This document shows, one piece after another, positions 6,752 to 61,549 of a stretch of DNA of 64,000 nt. The translations under genes were made by a program, and so were the position numbers. The stretch is from positions 1-64,000 of IMG/VR virus record IMGVR_UViG_3300021962_000028; one strand, 5' to 3'. Every line of letters starts with the position of its first letter. Position 1 is the first letter of the stretch. The DNA comes from a virus. Under the pieces are notes generated by a model that was not told the origin of the DNA, ran no database searches, and was given only the letters and a program-made list of their open reading frames with translations.

Positions 6752-9700
6752 TTAGATATTGTCAAATGACGCACCTGTTGGTGTAATCAAGAACTCAATA
6801 TCGATGAATTCTAACGCTTTAGTTGGTTTGATGTAAATTTTACCTACTAATTGGTTTTTATCTAAGTCTTCAGGAGATGAAGAAACTGTTACACGGAAAT
6901 CGTATAAACCTCTGTCTCTTCTGATAGCATCTAAGATAGGATTAACCGCGTCCAAGAAATCTTGTCTAACTTTCGCATCGTTTTGTTCAAACAGTAATCT
7001 AACCGCCACCGCTGAAATCAATTTACGTGCTTGTAATAACAATCTTCTTACGTTGATTCTATCAAGAGCCGACTCTCTAATTTGTAGAGTTTTGTTACCC
7101 CAAATTACAGTACCAACATCAGAGAAGGTTGCGATTGGGTTAAGTCTACCTACATATAAAGTATCTCTATCTTCTTGTGTTAATTTACGTCTCGCTTTAA
7201 TTGCGTTTACAAGACCTCTTGTGTAACCCGCAGATGCGAACCAAGGGAACGCGATGTTGTCGGTTAACGCTAAGTTTCTTGTTACTTCCGCAGTAGCTGG
7301 AATGTAAATTTGTGTATTGTTAACTGTATCACGAGTTAATACCCAAGGGTAGTAAGTTGCCGTGTAGTTAGAGTCAATACCTGTCTGTTCTAAGTTATCT
7401 ACCGCTTCTTGTGGATAAATCATATCTAAAGTATCGGTTGTAGAAGGTACAAACATATTAAAGTCAGGAGTAGTACAGATATATAATGAATCCGCTCTAT
7501 CGTACTCAATCATTTCAATCGCTTGTTCAACTAAGTTACTATTATTTACATAATCAATACCTGGTGTTACGAACACGTTAATGTTCACCGCCTCAGGGTT
7601 TGAGAATGTTTTTTGTCCTAATAGGTATGCGTAGTAGTCAGTATTCGCCCAATCTTGAGTATTATCCCCAACTGTTATACGTTTAAACATACCTGTACCA
7701 GTAGCATTTGGATATCTATCTGAATAACAAGCTCCCGCCAAATAACCTGAAGAACCTACTTGGAATCTATCTGAGTTTGTACGGTATTCTCTATAAATGT
7801 CCCATCCGTCGAAACCTCCGTGAACCATTAATGAGAATTTTCTTGCGTATAATCTGTAATAAGGGTTATTAGCGTTTGTTGGGTCATTTCTAAACTCAGC
7901 ATCACCAACCGCGAATGCCGTTCTACCTGAAGTAGCATATAAGTCAGCGATTTTAACAACAGTTGCTCCTGAGTCCATATGGAATCCTTTAGTTAAGTAA
8001 GACCAATCTTGTAATACAGGGTCACAAGTAGTACCTAAATTTTGTTTACCAACATATTGGAAAAAGTCTAAATCATAACCTGCTCCCGCCGCGGTAGATA
8101 AACCTAAGTAAGTTCTTCTTACATTGTCACCCGCACTAATCGCTGGATTATCTTGACCATTACTATATCCAAATGGAGGGTTGAAAATAACTTCTCCTGG
8201 GAAATCATACTTTGTTTTATAAACAGGGAATGGAGATTTTACCGATTCGTAGTTTCTAAAAGTATAACCTTCAAAACCACAAGGTAATGAATCTGTAGGT
8301 GCATCTTCATTAATTTCAACCATTACAAATTTAGAGTTCAATGCGTATTCCCCATCTGCCGTACCAATTTTTTTAGCTACGAAATTATTTAGATTAGGGT
8401 CCATAGAACAATTAGTGAATTTTTCTAACACAACAGGTGCATCATCAGTATCGTACCAATCACGGATAACAACATCAAATGTTTGATTTCCGAATGACAT
8501 ATTCATAATTGAAATTTTCAATTGGTCATTTGCCGAATTACCGTCAGCGATTGAGATAAATTTAAATAATCTGTAAACTTTAGTACCTCTTAATTCAGAC
8601 ACTAACCAAGGTGATTCAGGTGTTTGATATCTTTCACCGTAGTATCCAATACTTGAAGAGTTGTTACTTCTTGATTCTGGAGTTGAAATTAATTCCGCTC
8701 TAAGTCCTCTAATATATCCTTTTTTGAACGCCCAATTTAACATACTTGAGAATGTCTCCTCAACAAATAATGGGACCTCAGTTCTTGGTTTAGCAAAATT
8801 ACTTCCACCAAATACTTTTGGTAAGTAAGTTGCGTCTGACTCTTGTAATGAAGTTTTAAATACAAATGTTTTACCTTCATCATTTGTTACATTAATTGCA
8901 AATGGTGCAAATGGGTTTTTCTTAACCGCAGAATAACTACCTGTAAAGTCTAAGGTAACCGCACTTAACGCACTAACTTCATAAGTTGGTCCGTCATTAG
9001 TTGTATCATAGGTAGTTAAACCTCTTGACCTTAAAGTTGATACAATTAAATTATTGTAGTTACTGTAAGAAGTACCTGTATAGTAATAAATTTTACCGTG
9101 AAGAGTACCCGTAAAGCAATCAGGTTGTGTTGTAGTTGTTGTAGTTATAGGTGATGTCGTTGTAGTAGTTGCACAAGGATTCAAAGTTGTTGTTGTAGTT
9201 GTTACAGGAACCGTTGTTGTAGTTGTAGTAGTACCTGTTTTAGGTAACATAACCAACTCTGAAACTACAGTCCAAAATGACATACCTGAATAACTATCAC
9301 CACTGAAATTTTCAAATAATGAATAATACCAAGAATCGTTGTATGATGAAGAGAAGTCTGTGTTCGCCTCATTAACACTTGGTACATTTAATACGTTATT
9401 AGCGTCTGTAAATACAGGTGATAAAATATCGTAGTCGATATTATCAATACTACCCCAATAGTTAATTGATGTACCACTCAAACTTGGTTGAGCAAATATT
9501 GATAATAATTGTTGGTTAATGTCAGTTTTTAAAGTTGACACTCCACCGTTAAATTTAGTATATTGGTTATTAATAATGTTTTGAATTTCATCAGGGAAAT
9601 TAGTTACATATGTAATTGAACCATCTTGGTTACTACATCCTGTGAATTCAACATCAAAACTAAGTGATACACCTGTACAAGTAATGTCACAAGTATTATC

Positions 9701-10102
9701 ATTATAGTTAGGAATACTAGCACAAACCTCATCCATTTTAATCGTTGTAGGGTCTACGTTAGCAATTGTTTGAATTGACCAAGAAGGACCCGCATCGTAT
9801 CCTGACAAACCTAATACTCTTGTCATAAACATTTGATTAGATTGTTGTAGATATGATTTTGCTATATACGCCGATTCGTACTTAGGGATTTGCGTGTTTA
9901 TAAATTTTTCAGGGTTCGTTCCCCCGAAGTAAGTTTGGAACTCATCGTAATTACTAATGAAGATAGGTTCAAAAGCGGGACCTTTTAAAGCCTCACCTAC
10001 AACCCCTAATGTAGTAACACCAACACTTTGAGTAACAAAGCTTAAGTCTCTTTCTGATGTGTACACTCCTGGTGACACGAATACTTTACTGTTTGTTGCC
10101 AT
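6752..10102 (-). CDS. 18: Tail sheath protein, T4 gp18-like, enlarged
   Basis: 1116 residues against 659 in T4 gp18. The N-terminus has the family signature SPGVYTSERDLSFV and GVVGEALKGPAF. The C-terminal part has the subtilisin-like sheath core (ARRKLTQEDRDTLYVGRLN, GNKTLQ, RRLLLQARKLISAVAVRLLFEQN) and ends in a KIYIKPTKALEFIDIEFLI strand. The extra mass is in the N-terminal half. It includes a Thr-rich mucin-like linker at about residues 289-328, with four runs of five or more Thr separated by short Pro/Cys-containing spacers. The sheath contracts to drive the tube through the envelope. The insertion probably forms an exposed domain on the outside of the sheath (inference). Confidence 0.9.
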   Translation of the reverse strand: MATNSKVFVSPGVYTSERDLSFVTQSVGVTTLGVVGEALKGPAFEPIFISNYDEFQTYFGGTNPEKFINTQIPKYESAYIAKSYLQQSNQMFMTRVLGLSGYDAGPSWSIQTIANVDPTTIKMDEVCASIPNYNDNTCDITCTGVSLSFDVEFTGCSNQDGSITYVTNFPDEIQNIINNQYTKFNGGVSTLKTDINQQLLSIFAQPSLSGTSINYWGSIDNIDYDILSPVFTDANNVLNVPSVNEANTDFSSSYNDSWYYSLFENFSGDSYSGMSFWTVVSELVMLPKTGTTTTTTTVPVTTTTTTLNPCATTTTTSPITTTTTTQPDCFTGTLHGKIYYYTGTSYSNYNNLIVSTLRSRGLTTYDTTNDGPTYEVSALSAVTLDFTGSYSAVKKNPFAPFAINVTNDEGKTFVFKTSLQESDATYLPKVFGGSNFAKPRTEVPLFVEETFSSMLNWAFKKGYIRGLRAELISTPESRSNNSSSIGYYGERYQTPESPWLVSELRGTKVYRLFKFISIADGNSANDQLKISIMNMSFGNQTFDVVIRDWYDTDDAPVVLEKFTNCSMDPNLNNFVAKKIGTADGEYALNSKFVMVEINEDAPTDSLPCGFEGYTFRNYESVKSPFPVYKTKYDFPGEVIFNPPFGYSNGQDNPAISAGDNVRRTYLGLSTAAGAGYDLDFFQYVGKQNLGTTCDPVLQDWSYLTKGFHMDSGATVVKIADLYATSGRTAFAVGDAEFRNDPTNANNPYYRLYARKFSLMVHGGFDGWDIYREYRTNSDRFQVGSSGYLAGACYSDRYPNATGTGMFKRITVGDNTQDWANTDYYAYLLGQKTFSNPEAVNINVFVTPGIDYVNNSNLVEQAIEMIEYDRADSLYICTTPDFNMFVPSTTDTLDMIYPQEAVDNLEQTGIDSNYTATYYPWVLTRDTVNNTQIYIPATAEVTRNLALTDNIAFPWFASAGYTRGLVNAIKARRKLTQEDRDTLYVGRLNPIATFSDVGTVIWGNKTLQIRESALDRINVRRLLLQARKLISAVAVRLLFEQNDAKVRQDFLDAVNPILDAIRRDRGLYDFRVTVSSSPEDLDKNQLVGKIYIKPTKALEFIDIEFLITPTGASFDNI

Positions 10103-11430: not shown

Positions 11431-11979
11431 TTAGTATTTTAAAATTTCGTTAATAACGAATAATTTATTCTTTTGATTAATCATATCTACCTCTTTTGCT
11501 CGATATACAGGTTGTTCTGTTGATTTATAAACAAAACTATCGTATTTGTATGGGTTATATGTAACAACATTATCGTTTGATTCCTGAGGCATATTTTCAC
11601 AAGGGTATTTACAATAATCAACTAAGTCACCAATAACAAAGGCGTGTACATTCTTACTTTTTTCACTTCTAACTTTTTCTTTTCCACCCTTTCTAACTCT
11701 AAACTCAACATCACTTAATTTAACATAGTCCGCGTGAAGTATTACTTTAGATTTATATGTAACTGAAAAAGTGTGTTTATGTAAATTATAATAAACCATA
11801 ACTCGTTTACCTTTAAAATCTTCTTCAGAGTTATCGTGACCGCATTTATGACATACATATGGATTGTCACCGCCTTCTGTTGTATCCCAAGACCAACCAC
11901 AATCATCACATATGATTTTGTCATTAGTAATGGTTTCCATTATTAAATTTTTTTGTCTTTCACTAATTAATATTTTCAT
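11431..11979 (-). CDS. Zinc-ribbon protein with a conserved phage domain of unknown function
   Basis: 182 residues. A four-Cys zinc ribbon is evident at residues 24-48 (CDDCGWSWDTTEGG, then CHKCGHD). It is followed by the segment KGKRVMVYYNLHKHTFSV, then VILHADYVKLSDVEFRVR and KNVHAFVIGD. I recall a closely similar unnamed domain from many phages and prophages (recollection, not checked). The N-terminus (MKILISERQKNLIMET) carries two L-x-x-E/LxE sites of the type cut by T4 prohead proteases. It sits between the gp14-like and gp15-like genes, sharing its start region with the gp14-like stop. Function is unknown. Confidence 0.6.
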   Translation of the reverse strand: MKILISERQKNLIMETITNDKIICDDCGWSWDTTEGGDNPYVCHKCGHDNSEEDFKGKRVMVYYNLHKHTFSVTYKSKVILHADYVKLSDVEFRVRKGGKEKVRSEKSKNVHAFVIGDLVDYCKYPCENMPQESNDNVVTYNPYKYDSFVYKSTEQPVYRAKEVDMINQKNKLFVINEILKY

Positions 11980-12535: not shown

Positions 12536-14314
12536 ATGACTGAGTTGGAAATTAATAATTCAAACAATCCCCAATTAATAGAAAGAAAAGCACTTGAAAT
12601 ACTAGAGTCGTATTCAGGTGCAAATAACTATTTGTTAAGGTTAAAGAGACAACAGGACTTAAATAAGAAGTTTTACCCAACAAGAGCTCAAGCTGAATAT
12701 ATCATTAGTTTTCATAATATAGTTCCTAAAGTGGCCAAAAAATGGGTTGACTTAGACCCGTACTTTGCTCAAAAAATTGCCGACGAAAAATTATATACAA
12801 AAGTTCCTGAACAAATATGGATTGAAAAACTTTTAGTTGAGAAAGATAAATCATATCATATTTGGGGAAAAATTTTTGAAAATGAAGAATTACACGAAAT
12901 ATGGTTACCTAAAGGTGCTATTATAAAAACTCACAATGTTGAAAAGGTTGTAATTGACTATTCAAAATATTCCCATAGACCACCTCTTAATCATCAAAAG
13001 GAAGCGATTGAAAAGTTAGTCGGTTGTAAAAGATTTATACTTGCGGACGATATGGGGTTAGGTAAAACGACCTCAACTATTATCGCTGCTTTAGAAACAG
13101 GTGCTAAAAAAATATTAATAATATCACCAGCATCCCTTAAGATTAACTGGATGAGGGAAATTCAAAACTACACCGACAGAAGTGTTTATATTTGTGAAGG
13201 TAAAAATTTCTCAACTGAACACGACTTTGTAATCATTAACTATGACATTGTTAAAAATTTTTACGATATTAAAGACAAAGAAAACAGTCCAATATATCAA
13301 ATGAATTTTGATTTAATTGTTATTGATGAAGCTCATTATTTACAAAACGCTCAAGCTCAAAGAACTAAATTAGTTAATAGTTTTGCAAAAAGAGTCGATA
13401 GACTATGGTTACTAACGGGTACCCCATTAACCTCAAGACCAATTAATTATTTTAACTTACTAAATCTTATTGAATCTCCTGTGGCACAAAATTGGATGGC
13501 TTACGCAATTCGTTATTGTGAAGGATATCAATTTAAAGCTGGACCACGAAAGGTTTGGAACGTGAAGGGAGCATCTAATTTAGAAGAACTACGAGATAGA
13601 ACTTCAAGACAAGTCTTAAGAAGATTAAAAGAAGACGTATTAGATTTACCTGATAAAATTATTACCCCCGTTTATTTAAGACTAAAATCAAAATTATACG
13701 AGGGATTAATGGGAGAATACTTTGATTGGTACCGAGCCAATTCAGAAGAATCCTCATCATTAACATTACAATTTTCAAAACTAACAAAAGTTAGACAGAT
13801 TATTGCCGAAGAAAAAATATCTAGCACAATAGAGTTGTGTGAAAATATAATAGAACAAGGAAAAAAAGTTATTATTTTTACTAACTTTACTAACTCACTT
13901 CAAAAAATAGTAGAACATTTTGGAAAACAGTGTGTTTTCTTAGATGGAAGTTGTACTCAACCACAAAGACAATTTGCGGTTGACCAATTTCAAACCAATG
14001 ATAAAATAAACGTTTTTGTAGGTAACATAAAAGCGGCAGGTGTCGGTATTACATTAACATCCGCAGAGGCGGTTATAATGAATGATTTATCTTTCTTACC
14101 GTCAGACCATAGTCAGGCTGAAGATAGAGCCTATAGATATGGTCAGAAATCAAATGTTTCAGTATATTACCCAATATTTGAAAACACTATTGAAGGAGTT
14201 ATTTACGACATTTTATCAAAGAAAAAATCTATTATAGAAACAGTTATGGGTGACAACCTTGATAAGGCAGATTTTGTAGAAGAAGTTTTGAATTCTATAA
14301 ACAATAGTAGATAA
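12536..14314 (+). CDS. SNF2-family (superfamily 2) DNA helicase/translocase
   Basis: 592 residues. Helicase motifs are complete: Q-like LNHQKEAIEKL (151-161), Walker A DDMGLGKT (171-178), motif Ia LIISPASLKINW, Walker B DEAH (264-267), motif III LLTGTPLTS (292-300), motif V GVGITLTSAEAVI and motif VI QAEDRAYRYGQ. The order and the RAYRYGQ ending are typical of SNF2/SMARCAL1-like annealing helicases and translocases. In phages such enzymes act in replication-fork remodelling or recombination. The N-terminal 150 residues have no domain I recognise. It is divergent from the gp14-like gene and precedes the SOD-nuclease fusion. Confidence 0.9.
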   Translation: MTELEINNSNNPQLIERKALEILESYSGANNYLLRLKRQQDLNKKFYPTRAQAEYIISFHNIVPKVAKKWVDLDPYFAQKIADEKLYTKVPEQIWIEKLLVEKDKSYHIWGKIFENEELHEIWLPKGAIIKTHNVEKVVIDYSKYSHRPPLNHQKEAIEKLVGCKRFILADDMGLGKTTSTIIAALETGAKKILIISPASLKINWMREIQNYTDRSVYICEGKNFSTEHDFVIINYDIVKNFYDIKDKENSPIYQMNFDLIVIDEAHYLQNAQAQRTKLVNSFAKRVDRLWLLTGTPLTSRPINYFNLLNLIESPVAQNWMAYAIRYCEGYQFKAGPRKVWNVKGASNLEELRDRTSRQVLRRLKEDVLDLPDKIITPVYLRLKSKLYEGLMGEYFDWYRANSEESSSLTLQFSKLTKVRQIIAEEKISSTIELCENIIEQGKKVIIFTNFTNSLQKIVEHFGKQCVFLDGSCTQPQRQFAVDQFQTNDKINVFVGNIKAAGVGITLTSAEAVIMNDLSFLPSDHSQAEDRAYRYGQKSNVSVYYPIFENTIEGVIYDILSKKKSIIETVMGDNLDKADFVEEVLNSINNSR

Positions 14315-14359: not shown

Positions 14360-16027
14360 ATGAAAAATCTAGTAAATAAGATTGAAGCCTTAAAAGAGGA
14401 GGTCACACTAGTTGAAACTAAAAAAACTCAAAAATTCTTTTTATCTGAAATGAAAAGAATTGGTATTGAAAAATTACCTTACTCTTACACATCTCTTAAA
14501 CGTTTTATTGACCCCGAAACAATGGACATCCATTATAATAAACATTATAAAGGTTATGTCGAAAAATTAAATTTGGCGTTAGATAAGAAAAAGTTTGGTG
14601 ATTTAGACTTAGAACAAATTGTAAAAACAATTAGTCGTTTTAATAAAAATGTTAGAAATAATGCAGGTGGAGCATATAACCACGCACTTTTTTGGAAAAT
14701 GTTAACACCAACACCTCAAAAACCTAAAGGTTTAATTCTTAAGAAAATTGAAACTGAGTTTGGTACTGTAGGTTCATTTAAAAAGAAATTTGATGAAATT
14801 GCAAAAGAAAGATTTGGTTCGGGTTGGGTTTGGTTAGTTGTAACTAAAAACAACTCCTTAAAAATTATGTCAACTCCAAATCAAGACAACCCATTAATGA
14901 ATGATATTAAAGATGGTGGGTACCCTATTTTGGGATTAGATTTGTGGGAACACGCTTATTATTTAAAATATCGAAACAAACGAGACGAATATATTAAAAA
15001 CTTTTGGACTGCGGTTAATTGGGAGTTTGTAGAAAAGTTATATAAAATGAAAATTGAGACGAGAATCGATGAAGAGATTGTAATGACTCAACTAATGAAT
15101 TCGTCTAATAAAGATATTCTAACTGAAGATGAAATAAAATCTCAAAGTTGTTCAACAAGCGACGAACAGATGTTTAAAAAATTATTATTCCCTCCAACAG
15201 ATTTATTAGAGAAATCTGACTCATATGGTAAATTTAAAAAAGAATATATTACAGGATGGATGGATATACTTAAAAAATCTTATCCTGAAAATTGGAGAGA
15301 AAAAAATTCTTTATTTACAGGTCACGAAGCTGGATTATATAGTAAAGAAAATGTTAGGTCATTACTTATGAACTTAACCTCATCATACACCGCTTTTTGT
15401 ATTATTCATAAAGATGTTAACGAATATCTTAAGAAAAATAATCAAAACACTATCGAATATGGGGATAACCCAAATACAAACCTAATTGAACTACGAAAAT
15501 TTTTCTCAGTCCTTGATGGGTTGAGGTCTAATATCTTTAAACGAGGGGAACAATCTAACACCCTTAGACAAATTGGTGGTGTATTAAAAAAGACTGACTG
15601 TTTAGGTAAAAGAAATGAGGAAGCAACTATGAAAATTATCAACCAAAATTATGGTGAGGGGGCTTGTACTATCGTTTCAGGTGGGGGTATGACAAAAGAT
15701 ATGTTGTCAGGAATTGATGCTAATGTAGTTATTGACGGTAAAGAATATACTTCACAGATTAAACCTTTTAAAAATATCTTTGAAAAAGACGGGTATTTTG
15801 TAGTCCAAGGTTCATCAAGTACTCAATCTTATAACAAAGTTAATTTACTTATTTTTGTTAACGTTAAATCAAAACAAGTTAGAATTTATAAAACCCCAAA
15901 AACCAGAATCTACCAAGGGAGTTATTATATTCCAAAAGAAAACGAGGTTGCAACCATATTTGCTAAGGGAGAATTGGAATTAATCGACTGTAACAAATAT
16001 TTATCTGAAAACATTATATGGGAATAA
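14360..16027 (+). CDS. Mn-type superoxide dismutase fused to a PD-(D/E)XK-like nuclease domain
   Basis: 555 residues. Residues about 38-228 are a full-length Fe/Mn superoxide dismutase. Metal ligands are H58 (DIHYNKHYKGYV), H108 (YNHALFW), D194 and H198 (DLWEHAYY). Gateway Y66 and the RNKRDEYIKNFWTAVNWEF signature are present. Active-site type is manganese-like: Gly-Gly at 103-104 and Gln175 (NQDNPLM) rather than the FeSOD glutamine near the second His. Residues 229-410 are helical and unrecognised. Residues about 418-515 look like a restriction-endonuclease fold: E420/E421 on a helix, D453 (GIDANVV), and Q466-x-K468 (TSQIK). The fusion is followed with a 10-nt overlap by the gp13-like gene. 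An LSE site at residues 28-30 could be a prohead-protease cut (inference). Confidence 0.85.
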   Translation: MKNLVNKIEALKEEVTLVETKKTQKFFLSEMKRIGIEKLPYSYTSLKRFIDPETMDIHYNKHYKGYVEKLNLALDKKKFGDLDLEQIVKTISRFNKNVRNNAGGAYNHALFWKMLTPTPQKPKGLILKKIETEFGTVGSFKKKFDEIAKERFGSGWVWLVVTKNNSLKIMSTPNQDNPLMNDIKDGGYPILGLDLWEHAYYLKYRNKRDEYIKNFWTAVNWEFVEKLYKMKIETRIDEEIVMTQLMNSSNKDILTEDEIKSQSCSTSDEQMFKKLLFPPTDLLEKSDSYGKFKKEYITGWMDILKKSYPENWREKNSLFTGHEAGLYSKENVRSLLMNLTSSYTAFCIIHKDVNEYLKKNNQNTIEYGDNPNTNLIELRKFFSVLDGLRSNIFKRGEQSNTLRQIGGVLKKTDCLGKRNEEATMKIINQNYGEGACTIVSGGGMTKDMLSGIDANVVIDGKEYTSQIKPFKNIFEKDGYFVVQGSSSTQSYNKVNLLIFVNVKSKQVRIYKTPKTRIYQGSYYIPKENEVATIFAKGELELIDCNKYLSENIIWE

Positions 16028-17130
16028 TTGCAGAACCAAATAGAACAAAATTATATACGAGAGTAAAACACCTATTAGGTGCTCCTCTTAGAAGTGTTGA
16101 ATTGGAGGATGAAATGATGGACTCATTATTAGAGTTATCAATTGGAGATTACTCTCAATACATCCAAGATTGGTTAATCGAATCACAATGGTCGGCACTA
16201 CAAAATCTTAATCTTGACGAACAATCGTTAACAAGAGCTTTCATAACGAGAAGTTTGGACTATGAGACAAGATATACTTACGCATATTCTAAAATCGTAG
16301 GTTTACAAGCTGGTGGAGATTGGGTATTGAAGAAAGACTATATTGTAACTCAAAAAAATCAACAACTTTACGAAATTCCTAAAGGTAGAGAGGTGAACGA
16401 ACTATTATGGTTTACTCCTGCAACAATGAATAACGTTATGTTTGACCCATTTGCCTTTGGGGCTATGGGAGGTCCAGGTCTTGGTGGGGTTGGAGGATTT
16501 TCTCAGTTGGGTTATTCAGGTTCGTATACTATGATGCCAGCTTTTGATATGTTATTAAGAATGCAAGAAACAAATATTCAAAGACGTATCATTGGTAGTG
16601 ATTTAACTTACAGAATAACCGCATTACCTGACGGTAAAAAAATGATTCACCTAATGAATACTCCTGGCGGTAAATGGGATTTTGGTAGTGCTAATTACCA
16701 TAACGGTAAAGTTTGGTATTGGTATTATGATGTTGATGGTGCGGATAGAGATAAATGTTTAAGTGACAATCCTGATATCGTAAAATTACCTTCAGACGTT
16801 CCTTTGGATGAAATTTCTTGGGAGGATTTGAATAATCCCGCACAACAATGGATTAGAAGATGGTTCATTGGTTTGTGTAAAGAAGCTTTAGGACGAGTTA
16901 GAGGAAAATATAGTGGTAACCTTAAAACACCTGACAGTGAACTTACTATGGATTATACAAGTTTACTAACTGAAGGTAAGGACGAAAGAGCAAAACTACA
17001 AGAAGAATTAATGGCTCGTTTAGAAAGATTAAGACCTGAAAAACAAATAGAAAAAGACGCGTTAATCGCCGAAAATCTAAATAAGGCTTTGAAATTTAGA
17101 GCGATGCCAAGACAAATATACGTAATTTAA
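16018..17130 (+). CDS. Neck protein, gp13-like head completion protein
   Basis: 370 residues (T4 gp13 has 309). The N-terminus KLYTRVKHLLGAPLRSVEL followed by EDEMMDSLLELSIGDYSQYI matches the start of gp13-like connector proteins. The C-terminal helix-rich part (QQWIRRWFIGLCKEALGRVRGKYSG, then ELMARLERL) is the most conserved region of the family. A Gly/Met-rich insertion lies at residues about 140-175 (GAMGGPGLGGVGGFSQLG). gp13 closes the filled head and joins it to the tail. The start overlaps the stop of the SOD fusion (ATATGGGAATAA), so the two are translationally linked. Confidence 0.65.
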   Translation: MGIIAEPNRTKLYTRVKHLLGAPLRSVELEDEMMDSLLELSIGDYSQYIQDWLIESQWSALQNLNLDEQSLTRAFITRSLDYETRYTYAYSKIVGLQAGGDWVLKKDYIVTQKNQQLYEIPKGREVNELLWFTPATMNNVMFDPFAFGAMGGPGLGGVGGFSQLGYSGSYTMMPAFDMLLRMQETNIQRRIIGSDLTYRITALPDGKKMIHLMNTPGGKWDFGSANYHNGKVWYWYYDVDGADRDKCLSDNPDIVKLPSDVPLDEISWEDLNNPAQQWIRRWFIGLCKEALGRVRGKYSGNLKTPDSELTMDYTSLLTEGKDERAKLQEELMARLERLRPEKQIEKDALIAENLNKALKFRAMPRQIYVI

Positions 17131-33792: not shown

Positions 33793-34083
33793 ATGTCACA
33801 ACAAGAACCTATTGATTTGGCACAAACTGAAAAAAACTCATTAACTGAGATTGCCGAACAGGAAAGAAAAAAACTTTTTCCTAAGAATAACTACAATTCA
33901 ACGAATTCATATTCATCAACTAACCCTGACGCTTTAGCAACAGGTGATGAACAAGGTAAAGGTACGGGTGGAGATTTAGATGTTTACAGTACTTTCGCAG
34001 GTAGTAGTGTTGATAACGTTGAGAGAAAAAGTGAAATTAAAATTAACAAATTTAATTCATCAAAGACTTATCCTGATTTTTAA
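33793..34083 (+). CDS. Small Ser/Asn-rich protein of unknown function (96 aa)
   Basis: 96 residues with an acidic helical N-terminus (AQTEKNSLTEIAEQERKKLF) and a Ser/Thr/Asn/Gly-rich, probably disordered remainder. It starts 2 nt after the previous gene, and its stop overlaps the next start (TAATG), so it is part of a tight operon. No motif recognised. Confidence 0.45.
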   Translation: MSQQEPIDLAQTEKNSLTEIAEQERKKLFPKNNYNSTNSYSSTNPDALATGDEQGKGTGGDLDVYSTFAGSSVDNVERKSEIKINKFNSSKTYPDF

Positions 34084-34490
34084 TGAAACTATTAACTACA
34101 TTTACTAACCTAATTACGGAAACCGCGTCTTACGAGGATTTAATTGATGCGATTAAACAACGAAAGGTTATGATTATATACTATGATGGTGATGAACCAG
34201 GTGGTAGGGGTCTTCGTGAAATTGAACCTGTATGTATTGGTGTTAGTAAAGCAAATAATAAAGTAGTTAGAGCGTGGGATAAAGAAGGGTCTTCTCACAC
34301 GGGTTATAAGGGAGAACAACCTTTACCAGGGTGGAGACTTTTTAGACTCGATAAAATATTATCGTCAAAACCAACGGGAGAAGTTTACAATGAACCAAGA
34401 CCTGGTTATAATTTTAATGGAGATAAAACTATGGCACAAGTTATTCTTAACGCCAAGTTCGATAATCCACCACAAGAAAACGTAGCATAA
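34083..34490 (+). CDS. Stand-alone WYL-like domain protein
   Basis: 135 residues. The core matches the Sm/SH3-like WYL layout: helix DLIDAIKQRK, strand VMIIYYDGD, GLREIEPVCIGVSKANNKVVRAW, then a loop and GWRLFRLDKIL, the usual arginine-containing end. WYL domains bind nucleic acid or nucleotide ligands and regulate bacterial transcription and defence systems. Here no DNA-binding domain is attached. The N-terminus MKLLTTFTNLITE is similar in form to the capsid-targeting peptide of T4 internal head proteins (MKTYQEFIAE), so it could be a packaged protein (inference). Confidence 0.5.
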   Translation: MKLLTTFTNLITETASYEDLIDAIKQRKVMIIYYDGDEPGGRGLREIEPVCIGVSKANNKVVRAWDKEGSSHTGYKGEQPLPGWRLFRLDKILSSKPTGEVYNEPRPGYNFNGDKTMAQVILNAKFDNPPQENVA

Positions 34491-54984: not shown

Positions 54985-55369
54985 AATCGCGATGATTGCC
55001 CACGATGGTAAGAAGGCGGATATGGTTTCTTTTGCAATGAAACGTCTTGAGTTCTTCAAGTCAAATAATGTCGATGTCATTGCTACGGGAACTACAGGTA
55101 AACATTTAATCCACGCAGGATTAACTAATGTACATACAATGTTAAGTGGACCTATGGGTGGTGACGCTCAAATAGCCTCAATGATTACTAAAAATCAAAT
55201 AGATGCCGTCATATTCTTTATTGACCCATTAGAAGCACACCCACATCAAGTAGATGTTAATATGTTACTAAGAATCTGTAACGTTCACGACGTACCATTA
55301 GCAACAAATTACAAAACAGGTAAAATGGTTATTGACTCATTGGATAACCAAATTAAGGGACTAGTTTAA
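54959..55369 (+). CDS. mgsA: Methylglyoxal synthase
   Basis: 136 residues. IAMIAHDGKKADMVSF (H15, D16), DVIATGTTGKHLI, MLSGPMGGDAQIA (D69) and FFIDPLEAHPHQVDVN (H96, D99) correspond to the active-site blocks of E. coli MgsA (His19/Asp20, Asp71, His98, Asp101). The enzyme turns dihydroxyacetone phosphate into methylglyoxal, a glycolytic bypass that releases phosphate. All catalytic residues seem intact. It is an auxiliary metabolic gene, overlapping a small gene of unknown function and convergent with the next gene. Confidence 0.9.
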   Translation: MQLLKKTIKIAMIAHDGKKADMVSFAMKRLEFFKSNNVDVIATGTTGKHLIHAGLTNVHTMLSGPMGGDAQIASMITKNQIDAVIFFIDPLEAHPHQVDVNMLLRICNVHDVPLATNYKTGKMVIDSLDNQIKGLV

Positions 55370-56957
55370 TAAACTGACCAACATTATACGATTTAGTATT
55401 AGTAATTAACTGTTTTATTATTTTATACACGTCAGGGGTTGTAGTTAATACCGCATTTTTATTATCGACGATTCTTTTACCATACGCAGCTACAGTATCA
55501 CCTTTATCAACTTTAACTGTGATTGGTGTTGTACCTGTTGGTACCACAACTTTAGTTGTAGTAGTTGTAGATTTCGCAACTTTTTGGTTAAATGTAATGT
55601 TACTACCTTTTTTAATTTGTTGAGTACCGTCCTTACCTGATTTAAAATCTAATAATACCGCGTATGACTTTTTATCTGCGTTTAATTGTATTGTTTTACT
55701 CTTAATCAAAGCATTTGCATAATCCTGTGATGAACCTGTATATACTGTTGGTACGTCAACTGCCGTAATAGTTGTTTTATCTCCTGTTCCTGACGAGGAA
55801 CCTCCTCCACCTCTAAGTAATTTACCACACTTATCTAAAACACATATTTCACCTTCAGAAACGTTTGGGAAAAAAGGTTCTACAACCACTTGTCCATCAC
55901 TATTTAAAACACTAACGTGAGGTACTGAGGTATGACATTTACCTGGACCCCAATCTCTATCTTCACCAGGAGGTGTTAAACATCTTAACCTTATTGAAAT
56001 CTCTTTTTTTGGACTTGCGGCAATTATCTTATCGATAGTTGGTTTGTCTTTTAAAATTAATGTATTGTATCTAAAACCACCAATTTTTTTGTCATCTGCA
56101 TACCCTATAGGGTCTAACGTTTTATTTCCCCCTTTATTATTCATATTACAATCCCCACCAGCTTGTGTTGTTATTCGAGTACCATTCGCGGTAACTTCAA
56201 ATAACGCAGCATTACAAGTGTGTTTGGCATCCATATCATAATTAATTTTAATTTTTAAATTAAATAAACATTGATTTTCACCTAAATCAGGTTCAATAAT
56301 AAAACGTACCTTAGTGAATTGGTCTGCATCGTAACCCGCTTTTAGTTTCGCATATTCAGGATTTACCGCTGGGTCTGCACCCGCTTTAACCCATTTTTGA
56401 TAATCCGCCCATCCACCTGAAGGTTCTGTTTTTTGAGTTTTACCAATAATTGTTGTAACCTTAACTTCATCAGGTTTTCTTGATATAAATTTACCATCAA
56501 TTAAGTCCTGTATTTGTTTTGTGAAATAAGCTTGTATATTTTTTGCTCTTGCGTTAGATAACTCTTCCTCTTTTAATGAACTTCCTGTTAACTTACCTTC
56601 ATTATCAAAGTTAGGTATTATGGATTCACCTGCATCTATATAAATTCTAGGTATCAAACCTTTATTAGTTTTTAAATATTCTTTTGCGGCTATTATATAA
56701 GGGTCTAATTTAGGTTTATTTGAATATGTTTTACCTCTCCATTCGTGGTCATTAAGGGTATACCACCCTGGTGCATATAAGTTAGTGATAAATGGACTAA
56801 CAAATCTACCATTAGAGTCCTCAGTAAATCCTTTTGGGACTGTTACTTGTTCAAATAAATTATTTTTTTCCTGTTCCTGAATTAAACTATATTGACGTAA
56901 TATGTTTAATCTTTCTTCTTCAGTTATTATTGTATTTTTTTTACACGAGTTACACAT
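55353..56957 (-). CDS. Large protein with OmpA-like segment, probable virion protein
   Basis: 534 residues. IPRIYIDAGESIIPN and ELSNARAKNIQAYFTKQI (residues about 101-145) have the order of OmpA/MotB peptidoglycan-binding domains. A middle region has Cys pairs (ENQCLFNLKIKINYD, CNAALFEV). A Gly/Ser and Thr-rich linker (STTTTTK) precedes a C-terminal VKVDKGDTVAAYGKRIVDN segment that looks LysM-like. The N-terminus has ITEEER and SLIQE sites. Peptidoglycan contact (tail tip or internal) is inferred; family uncertain. A TATTTATT motif lies 14 nt upstream. Confidence 0.5.
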   Translation of the reverse strand: MCNSCKKNTIITEEERLNILRQYSLIQEQEKNNLFEQVTVPKGFTEDSNGRFVSPFITNLYAPGWYTLNDHEWRGKTYSNKPKLDPYIIAAKEYLKTNKGLIPRIYIDAGESIIPNFDNEGKLTGSSLKEEELSNARAKNIQAYFTKQIQDLIDGKFISRKPDEVKVTTIIGKTQKTEPSGGWADYQKWVKAGADPAVNPEYAKLKAGYDADQFTKVRFIIEPDLGENQCLFNLKIKINYDMDAKHTCNAALFEVTANGTRITTQAGGDCNMNNKGGNKTLDPIGYADDKKIGGFRYNTLILKDKPTIDKIIAASPKKEISIRLRCLTPPGEDRDWGPGKCHTSVPHVSVLNSDGQVVVEPFFPNVSEGEICVLDKCGKLLRGGGGSSSGTGDKTTITAVDVPTVYTGSSQDYANALIKSKTIQLNADKKSYAVLLDFKSGKDGTQQIKKGSNITFNQKVAKSTTTTTKVVVPTGTTPITVKVDKGDTVAAYGKRIVDNKNAVLTTTPDVYKIIKQLITNTKSYNVGQFIKLVP

Positions 56958-57040: not shown

Positions 57041-58852
57041 TTATCTTAACTCTTGTAAGTCAAATGTTCTAACTCCATCGACAGTGATTTTACCATAGAA
57101 ACGGTTGTTAACCATTTTCTTAGCGTATCTTGTCATAATACCTTTGATAGGTGTGAAGTTAAATGGATTGTACATTGTAGGAGTTAATTGTAGAGGTACG
57201 TACGGTGCGTAGATGTAACCTGTGTCTAACAATGATGTTCCTTTGTGTCCCATTAACACTGTGTTAGCTGGGAAGTAAGGGTCACGGTAAACTTGGTAAC
57301 GACCTGCTAAAGTACCAACTCTTTCAATACCCATATTGTATTGGTCTTGGTCTGGAGCCGCGTTAGATACGTGGAAGTATTCTAAGTCGTCGAAGATAGC
57401 TGAAATCTCAGAAGAAACAACAATCCAGTTAGCCCCACCTCTTAATGTTGATTTGTGGATTTGAGCCGAAACTTGGTTGATTGCAGTAATCAAAGTTTGG
57501 TTCCAATCTTTTTGTGTGTAAGATGTAGTTTGAGATAATCTCTTCCATCCGTTGTAGTCCCAACGTAAAGACCAAGCAGCACCTTTACGTAAGTCACGTA
57601 AAATTTCACGGTCAATCTCAGCCGCAACTTGTTCAGATAATAAAGCCGTTAATTCAGCTTCAGCATCGATGTTGTGGAAAGCCGCAACGTCTTGAGCTAA
57701 CTCAGGAGACCATTGTGCTCTTAATTTTCTTTCAGTGACAGAAACTGTAACAGATTCTAAGTCGAAAGAAACCTCACCGATTTTATCTTCAAATTCTAAT
57801 TCTTCATAACGTCTGAAAACAGCGATGAATGAAGTACCAGCAACTGCTTCAGTAATTGTAGTACCTGTATAACCATCTAAAGAGTCAGCTCCACAAGTAG
57901 CACATACTGGACATTGTAAGTCAACTTCTAAATAGATACATCCGTCTTGAGAACAGATACTATCGTAAGTTCCACCGTTTCCGTTAGGGAATACTGTTGG
58001 AGTTGCAGTTGATGTTGGTGCAACGATACCTTTACCATATTGTTGAGTAACAACTCTGAAAGGTAAAGCCGATGCCGTTGTATCAGTACATCCTGATACC
58101 GCAGTTAAACCTGTACCTGCAATGATATGTAAGTCAGATAAGAAAGTTTCAGTATCAACTTCAGACCCGTCAGGACCCATTAATTTACCTACACCATTAT
58201 CGTAGAAACCACACATTTTAACAATCATTTTTCTAACGTTTTTACCGTCAAATTGAGTTGTAGCGTCAACTAATGCTCCGTCAGACCATACTTGTACAGT
58301 TGTTGTAGCAGTGATTGCTGACCATTGACCTTTTGAATAATCAAAAAGACCTGCAGGATTTAAAGTTGGTTCTGCACCTTCGTAGAATAAATCGTAAAGG
58401 TTTTTAGCATAAGCCCCTGAACCTGTGTAACCAGCGTTTTGATTACCTGGGTAGTTTCCTGGAGAACCAATTGGAGCGTAGTGCTCACCTGATTGATTCG
58501 CAGTTCCACCTGTGTAACCTTGAATTTTAGGTACGAAGTAGAATAATTTACCGATTGGTAAGTTCATCGCTTGTACAGAAACGATATCATTCGCTAATAA
58601 TTTAGAGAATACACGTCTAACGATTGGGAATACAACAGTTTCGAAAGAACCTGATGAATCCGTTGAAGACGCTTCGTTGATTAAGAAAGAAGCTTGGTTT
58701 TCATATAACTGAGCTACGTTCTCTTTTAGGTGACCTTTAAGGCCTTCTAGGAATCCTAATTTATCCCATTTGTTGATTGTATCTTCTTTGATAACTTTTA
58801 GGTGTTTTAACCCAATGTTACCAACAAGACCTGATTCTAATAATGCTCCCAT
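57041..58852 (-). CDS. 23: Major capsid protein, T4 gp23-like
   Basis: 603 residues (T4 gp23 has 521). The N-terminal ~60 residues are a helical propeptide ending in SFLINE|A (60/61), a site of the (L/I)-x-E type cut by T4 gp21. The body has the gp23 signature: ETVVFPIVRRVFSKLLANDI, IGKLFYFVPK, and the conserved RKLRAQWSPELAQDVAAFHNI with AEAELTALLSEQVAAEIDREI. A central insertion contains a Cys cluster (CPVCATCGAD) around residues 313-325. The protein forms the head lattice. It is downstream of the scaffold gene and followed by a strong terminator. No TATTTATA motif is seen in the 31 nt before it, so it may rely on the scaffold promoter. Confidence 0.92.
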   Translation of the reverse strand: MGALLESGLVGNIGLKHLKVIKEDTINKWDKLGFLEGLKGHLKENVAQLYENQASFLINEASSTDSSGSFETVVFPIVRRVFSKLLANDIVSVQAMNLPIGKLFYFVPKIQGYTGGTANQSGEHYAPIGSPGNYPGNQNAGYTGSGAYAKNLYDLFYEGAEPTLNPAGLFDYSKGQWSAITATTTVQVWSDGALVDATTQFDGKNVRKMIVKMCGFYDNGVGKLMGPDGSEVDTETFLSDLHIIAGTGLTAVSGCTDTTASALPFRVVTQQYGKGIVAPTSTATPTVFPNGNGGTYDSICSQDGCIYLEVDLQCPVCATCGADSLDGYTGTTITEAVAGTSFIAVFRRYEELEFEDKIGEVSFDLESVTVSVTERKLRAQWSPELAQDVAAFHNIDAEAELTALLSEQVAAEIDREILRDLRKGAAWSLRWDYNGWKRLSQTTSYTQKDWNQTLITAINQVSAQIHKSTLRGGANWIVVSSEISAIFDDLEYFHVSNAAPDQDQYNMGIERVGTLAGRYQVYRDPYFPANTVLMGHKGTSLLDTGYIYAPYVPLQLTPTMYNPFNFTPIKGIMTRYAKKMVNNRFYGKITVDGVRTFDLQELR

Positions 58853-60820: not shown

Positions 60821-61549
60821 TTATTTACCCAAATAATCGGATAATTTTTTCATTAAGTCAAGCGATTTGTTTCCTGAATCTGTACTCATACCTGTCGCTC
60901 TTGACATTTGCATTTGTTTTTCTTCGTCAAGATTCTCATCATACTTACTTCTATCATCTGCATTTAAGAAAAGATACGCCCCTGGTGTTGAGGGTGAAGA
61001 CACTAAGTCAAAACAGATTAATTCAAAATCGTCTTGTACTTCGTTTTGTTCCCCCTTCTTAGCCAATGACCCTACACCTCTCGATGAGATACCTAAAGTA
61101 ACTCCTTGTCTTAAGTAGTTAGCCGCCATATCACCTTTAGTTGATACAATACCTCTTTCGTGAAAACCAGGTGAAGTTAATAGTTTTAATTTACCCATTA
61201 GTACATTTCCCTCCCACCACACTTCTGTGATAATGTGTGAAACTCTATCTAAGTCAATTAAAGAAGATTCAGGGTGATTTAATTCTGATAACGAAGTTCC
61301 TTTAGCAATTGCTTTTTTATAGTTCTCCGCCTCTCTTTTTAATATTCGTTCAGGATATACTCTACCATTTCTATTAGGGGTATTATATTTTTGTAATACT
61401 GCGTAGAACTCAAATGGTTTTGAGTGGTCTAATGTATTCTTAGATTCCTTAATAATCTCAGCGTTATGAGTATCCGATGGTGACACATACCCTGCGTCGT
61501 ATTCAATCAGAATTCCCTTACCTGATTCATTTGGTGCTAATACTTTCAT
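60821..61549 (-). CDS. 21: Prohead maturation protease, gp21-like
   Basis: 242 residues. Catalytic blocks match the T4 gp21/herpesvirus-type serine protease: LSELNHPESS (His92), TLGISSRGVGS (Ser155/156 region) and a late FDLVSSPSTPGAY segment. FEFYAVLQKYNTPNRNGRVY and DRVSHIITEVWWEG are usual family segments. The enzyme cuts prohead proteins after (L/I)-x-E during head maturation. A TATTTATT motif lies 14 nt upstream. The last ~40 residues are acidic and may be an autocleaved tail. Confidence 0.85.
   Translation of the reverse strand: MKVLAPNESGKGILIEYDAGYVSPSDTHNAEIIKESKNTLDHSKPFEFYAVLQKYNTPNRNGRVYPERILKREAENYKKAIAKGTSLSELNHPESSLIDLDRVSHIITEVWWEGNVLMGKLKLLTSPGFHERGIVSTKGDMAANYLRQGVTLGISSRGVGSLAKKGEQNEVQDDFELICFDLVSSPSTPGAYLFLNADDRSKYDENLDEEKQMQMSRATGMSTDSGNKSLDLMKKLSDYLGK

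Follow-up and report, generated by a model that had tools for sequence, protein, structure and literature searches.

A superoxide dismutase-nuclease fusion as candidate head cargo of uncultured Far-T4-type phages

Superoxide dismutase (SOD) alone is a widespread domain. Stand-alone Fe/Mn SODs are encoded in the genomes of the phages PA5oct, MIJ3 and Vibrio phage 2.275.O, as a SOD is in the phage analysed here, from which they differ in showing 26-27% identity over the matched stretch and in leaving the nuclease part of its protein unmatched. For enzymes that travel with the phage particle, a described system is that of T4. There the head protease gp21 cleaves after L/I-X-E (PMC9026906), and foreign proteins, among them EcoRI and staphylococcal nuclease, were packaged and delivered to the cell when fused to T4 capsid-targeting leaders (PMC9026906, PMC3012670). 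The T4 internal proteins IPIII and IPII start with MKTYQEFIAE/A, and IPI has STITE/A near its start (slashes mark cut positions as read from the motif).

The window analysed here is a stretch of 64,000 nucleotides from a 158.6-kb phage genome (G000). Best named-phage matches of its gp23-like major capsid protein (MCP) are Microcystis phage Mel-JY01, Flavobacterium immuto phages and Rhodothermus phage RM378, and from these we read the phage as a member of the group named 'Far-T4' (PMC4360716).

The fusion gene and its two enzyme domains

A preliminary description of the window had proposed that an Mn-type SOD and a nuclease-like C-terminal part share one ORF of 555 residues. Its coordinates and strand proved exact (Table 1), and the residues that it named (H58, Y66, G103-G104, H108, Q175, D194, H198, D453 and Q466-x-K468) are all placed correctly; a glutamate left unnumbered is E420. 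In a Pfam search of the whole protein both SOD families scored far above cut-off (Sod_Fe_N, E 1.9e-22; Sod_Fe_C, E 4.6e-39). H58, H62, Y66, G103, G104, H108, Q175, D194 and H198 are invariant in 210 of 210 distinct SOD domains, which thus hold the three His and one Asp ligands, the gateway Tyr/His and the Gly-Gly and Gln of Mn-type enzymes within the Fe/Mn family. By both sequence and fold comparison with the PDB, the closest solved SODs are Mn enzymes, the best being that of Sphingobacterium sp. T2. The Mn type is supported by Pfam, nearest structures and active site, and a Mn-type superoxide dismutase with a complete active site is well supported by fold and conserved residues.

Table 1. Positions in the window of the fusion gene, its parts and the other features considered
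Feature	Position	Strand	Basis or remark
SOD-nuclease fusion ORF, 555 aa	14360..16027	+	
N-terminal leader, residues 1-35, predicted helix ending F-[LI]-x-E30 (E30 codon 14447-14449)	14360..14464	+	[LI]xE in 171/177 leaders
Mn-type superoxide dismutase domain, residues 36-230	14465..15049	+	Pfam, PDB sequence and fold, invariant active site
Low-confidence linker, residues 231-263, with L254-T-E256 (E256 codon 15125-15127)	15050..15148	+	
Helical middle region, residues 264-404	15149..15571	+	AF2 model, HMM census
PD-(D/E)XK nuclease-like domain, residues 405-520	15572..15919	+	
Nuclease residue codons	E420 15617-15619; D453 15716-15718; Q466 15755-15757; K468 15761-15763	+	
SNF2/UvsW-type helicase, constant upstream neighbour	12536..14314	+	
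gp13-like neck protein, constant downstream neighbour	16018..17130	+	phrog_211 E 3.8e-9; start overlaps fusion end by 10 nt
ISE-leader, zinc-ribbon-like, phrog_586 protein	11431..11979	-	
gp23-like major capsid protein, predicted maturation site I58-N-E60/A61	57041..58852	-	phrog_138 E 2.6e-67
gp21-like head maturation protease, proposed processing enzyme	60821..61549	-	phrog_207 E 2.6e-43

The C-terminal half has no credible family in Pfam, PHROGs or PDB sequence profiles, and matches to Endonuclease VII are sub-threshold only. An AF2 model built from an alignment of 38 relatives (pLDDT 84, pTM 0.79) predicts the alpha-beta core of PD-(D/E)XK enzymes, with the conserved E420, D453 and Q466-x-K468. 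Foldseek comparison with the PDB places I-Ssp6803I first (2ost; E 5e-3, probability 0.99), followed more weakly by archaeal Hjc resolvases, and the weaker matches in the viral library (BFVD) include viral proteins annotated PD(D/E)XK. The E-value is modest, and on the predicted structure the assignment to a PD-(D/E)XK endonuclease fold with the corresponding active-site pattern holds, in agreement with the nuclease-like part of the earlier proposal. The top BFVD match is UniProt A0A6J5L953, a 501-aa 'superoxide dismutase' from an uncultured phage that is itself a relative of the fusion. In the literature on SOD in such phages no paper describing the fusion protein was found.

Scanning IMG/VR with the fusion yielded at least hundreds of candidate stretches. 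Among the matches listed, 64 distinct full-length sequences of roughly 43-97% identity share the fusion, with the SOD ligands, E420, D453, Q466 and K468 invariant in 64/64. For the SOD half and the nuclease half alike, dN/dS to the nearest relatives lies at 0.02-0.04, indicating that purifying selection acts on both. Because the same fusion recurs in 64 distinct sequences with invariant key residues and low dN/dS, it is not an assembly join. In L040 and L041, from two samples, a run of nine A around 6780-6880 divides the fusion between two frames that overlap; this could be a natural split, a frameshift or a sequencing indel. By tblastn no INPHARED record covers 80% of the fusion, and its C-terminal part is matched there only in a 735-kb metagenomic phage, represented by two records. 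Records of 'phage' SODs that look bacterial (e.g., H1-H9) match the SOD part only and were set aside as probable bacterial contigs.

A fixed locus with exchangeable partners

The gene for the neck protein gp13 directly follows the fusion, as had been noted before, and the arrangement is general: amongst 243 distinct SOD ORFs from uncultured Far-T4-type phages, each one with readable flanks follows the helicase gene and precedes gp13. The gp13 locus was also inspected in phages chosen by capsid protein and not by SOD (G001-G005), and 5/5 of those where gp13 was found have a SOD there. It stands alone in G001, between a metallopeptidase-like module and a small module in G002, between the metallopeptidase-like module and the nuclease in G003 and G004, and ahead of two nuclease modules in G005.

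The 243 ORFs comprise 117 leader-SOD-nuclease, 56 zincin-SOD, 30 zincin-SOD-other, 22 leader-SOD, 17 zincin-SOD-nuclease and one leader-SOD-other, counts that are skewed by the choice of queries and by IMG/VR redundancy. In total 134/243 have the nuclease, 103/243 an N-terminal zincin-like module and 22/243 no partner. The zincin-like module is unrecognised by Pfam; it has HExxH in 103/103 cases, with no variation at H78, E79, H82 and E102 among 90 distinct sequences, and on this pattern it is called metallopeptidase-like. Another C-terminal module of about 340 aa, found behind zincin-SOD in 15 ORFs (L494, L502, L508 and 12 more), shows an E..D..CK-like pattern and could be another nuclease.

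Since the nuclease is absent from 109/243 SOD proteins at the same locus, the SOD-nuclease pairing, as judged from these sequences, is common but optional. The suggestion that the pair as such is the functional unit is not supported by this comparison, as the same place is occupied in relatives by a SOD without partner, by a SOD joined to a metallopeptidase-like module, or by the nuclease without SOD. Nuclease without SOD was found at 25 loci, 24 of them in the same place as far as the flanks are readable. In the nuclease tree two groups of these proteins nest within SOD-bearing ones, with strong support in the case of L111 and moderate support in the other; this nesting argues for loss of SOD and against a state before its gain, probably with at least two losses.

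In most copies the helical middle region accompanies the nuclease domain, according to the HMM census. A second copy of the nuclease module lies at 140488-141645 of G000, behind a different N-terminal part. The phrog_586 protein carries a C-terminal copy in L029, L034, L035, L037, L038, L054, L059, L079 and L081, and lacks it in the window. Also in the window, the 1116-aa tail sheath protein (6752-10102) has inner threonine runs (TTTTTT..), which suggest a large insertion.

A tree of the SOD domains, computed without L186 and L229 (both long-branched) and L002, places the phage SODs in a single clade apart from 78 bacterial SODs (SH-aLRT 100). Bacteroidota account for 70 of the 80 best bacterial matches. 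Together, the single clade and these matches suggest that SOD was taken up once, from Bacteroidota, and that the host of the fusion phage is probably a member of that phylum. When kept, L186, a SOD on a Fluviicola MAG contig, groups within the phage clade on a long branch; this is possibly a phage contig in the MAG or a branch artefact. A profile search of genome contigs with the nuclease alignment gave no match, and so pointed to no bacterial source for this domain.

Motifs at the joints and the head protease

The residue six positions before the SOD start is E in 175/177 distinct leaders, and [LI]xE is present in 171/177, while other leader positions drift. The motif itself is short and common. 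Distinct linkers between SOD and a C-terminal partner hold [LI]xE in 120/120 cases and [LI][STN]E in 110/120, compared with means of 73 (maximum 87) and 24.5 (maximum 37) in shuffles that ignore shared descent. Within-domain 40-mers have the two motifs in 34% and 12% of cases, and in the short tails of partnerless SODs [LI][STN]E appears in 3/47 only. The linker is modelled with pLDDT <50 at residues 236-246 and 248-261.

The window encodes both a gp21-like protease and a gp23-like MCP (Table 1), and in the MCPs of this phage group L57-I-N-E60-A61 is found in 81/81 aligned sequences. In G002 one module occurs both in standalone leader proteins (KLIKE/NVSLKEKLLG) and behind SOD (PLNE/SISLKEKLLG), and strong homology between the two starts directly after the glutamate. 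Five small leader proteins of the ISESQ type (148-149 aa, four of them close copies) flank the zincin-SOD gene of the same phage (L361, 1255-5172).

Leader-type motifs are also frequent elsewhere in the genome, with 27 in the first 45 residues of its proteins against 6.3 in shuffled sequences (maximum 15 in 200 shuffles). About 25 proteins have [ILVMF][IL][STN]E in this stretch (e.g., MKYIITESK.., MKILISERQ..); many are encoded at G000 131287-157947, outside the window, and others at 11431-11979, 34083-34490 and 55353-56957 within it. In ten of the motif-bearing proteins the Pfam scan yielded no more than a sub-threshold match to WYL and a marginal one to GYF_2.

Directly behind the leader glutamate most sequences have M or I, where the MCP and the T4 internal proteins have A, and this weakens the case for cleavage at the leader joint. 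The linker glutamate is often followed by G or S, and the linker joint fits protease cleavage better than the leader joint. Modelled as part of the full-length protein, the leader forms a helix, in places of low confidence, that could simply support the SOD dimer. One Flavobacterium phage paper, consulted for virion proteomics of a cultured relative, contained none.

A proposed head cargo, its alternatives and related systems

A head cargo matured by the capsid protease is the simplest account of the fixed locus, the constant SOD, the swappable partners and the conditional joints. We think it fairly probable that the ORF encodes a modular protein of this kind, targeted to the prohead by its leader, cleaved by a gp21-type protease and injected with the DNA, with SOD as its constant and the nuclease as its optional part. 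In the scheme that we infer for targeting, packaging, cleavage, injection, enzyme activity and substrates, the leader would direct the precursor into the prohead core, where the gp21-like protease would cleave after E30 and E256 during head maturation. Cleavage would release SOD and nuclease within the capsid, and the freed enzymes would pass into the cell with the phage DNA. The SOD might then clear superoxide around entry, or, in sunlit and oxygenated water, might shield the DNA and proteins packed in the head; the nuclease might target DNA of the host or of competitors, or branched DNA of the phage itself. SOD would be the constant function of the locus, and the nuclease and metallopeptidase-like modules its exchangeable payloads.

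Carriage in the virion, which the preliminary description had derived from the gp13 neighbour, is a reasonable guess, albeit one whose basis lies less in that neighbour than in the L/I-x-E motifs at the joints. The same description took two separate products as a refutation of the fusion. The cargo reading predicts such products, which would arise by proteolysis after translation.

The conditional joints and the constancy of the locus also bear on other explanations. An intracellular auxiliary metabolic SOD might sustain the host under oxidative stress, with nothing packaged and no processing role for leader or joints. A complete active site, a probable acquisition from Bacteroidota and the annotated SOD genes of other phages would all suit this. 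We nevertheless regard it as unlikely, given that the gene always lies between helicase and gp13, that the leader glutamate is near-invariant while other leader residues drift, and that the joint motif depends on a C-terminal partner. Quite unlikely, too, is an uncut bifunctional enzyme, in which SOD and nuclease stay one covalent unit and the SOD guards DNA or nuclease from oxidation during cutting. That 117 leader-type and 17 zincin-type ORFs carry the fusion, and that both halves are under purifying selection, would be expected of such an enzyme, but 109/243 SOD ORFs do without the nuclease, 25 nuclease loci are without SOD through apparently at least two losses, and the low-confidence linker has an [LI]xE site in every case.

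The remaining alternatives concern the nuclease. T4 gp4 is a predicted PD-(D/E)XK head-completion protein (PMC1189080), and a head-completion or packaging nuclease analogous to gp4 or gp49, sited among the neck genes with SOD as passenger, would be in keeping with that prediction, with the gp13 neighbour and with the Hjc-like fold matches. The lack of a gp4 family match in G000 might have been added to these points, but was dropped as support because G001 and G002, whose SOD stands at the locus without the nuclease, have no gp4 match either. Given also the 109/243 SOD ORFs that lack it, such a role appears highly improbable. Homology of the module to gp4 itself was rejected for want of profile similarity (hhalign probability about 0.1%). 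Scarcely credible is a homing-type or mobile endonuclease domain spreading among phage genes. Its nearest solved fold is indeed the homing enzyme I-Ssp6803I, and copies occur on the phrog_586 protein, at G000:140488-141645 and in the 735-kb phage; however, place and orientation are constant in the compared loci, the module has long been conserved with SOD at low dN/dS, and instead of sporadic occurrence inside an intact gene or intron it shows a constant position between helicase and gp13.

For Far-T4 phages in general, we see roughly even chances that they pack an enzyme polyprotein, made of a SOD core with nuclease and metallopeptidase-like modules shuffled between L/I-x-E joints, from which the head protease frees the enzymes for injection. 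If true, superoxide control would be a standing function at one locus of widespread uncultured aquatic phages, brought by the virion and not made after infection, and the T4 principle of a leader with any payload would extend to serial, protease-split enzyme cargo. The importance of superoxide at phage entry would become a testable question. As about 25 proteins of this genome, most of them without annotation, have leaders of this kind, L/I-x-E joints might also serve as a sequence rule for tracing other head-packaged effectors within phage dark matter.

Amongst known proteins, the MnSOD of Sphingobacterium sp. T2 (PDB 6gsc, 5a9g) aligns structurally with the phage SOD at a TM-score of 0.89 (normalised by the SOD) and 46% identity, and shares with it every ligand and the Mn-type Gly-Gly and Gln. 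Unlike bacterial MnSOD, the phage version has an additional leader, whose glutamate is nearly invariant, and is usually flanked by partner modules on one side or on both. I-Ssp6803I and the Hjc resolvases share with the C-terminal module the predicted fold and the E...D...Q-x-K constellation; the phage module differs from them in having no sequence-level match, a helical region in front and no sign of an intron or homing. The 'polyvalent proteins' of phages and plasmids (PMC5512222) are likewise multidomain phage proteins with varying enzyme domains. The main text of that paper makes no mention of superoxide dismutase, and here, by contrast, one locus has SOD as its unchanging domain, with head-protease motifs at the joints. 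T4 IPI, IPII, IPIII and Alt have, like the SOD proteins, diverse payloads behind a short N-terminal leader ending in [L/I]-x-E, and the phage of the window likewise encodes a gp21-like protease, while its MCP has this motif too. The leaders are alike in pattern only, and the putative payloads of the phage differ in being enzymes that follow one another in a single chain, with further L/I-x-E joints.
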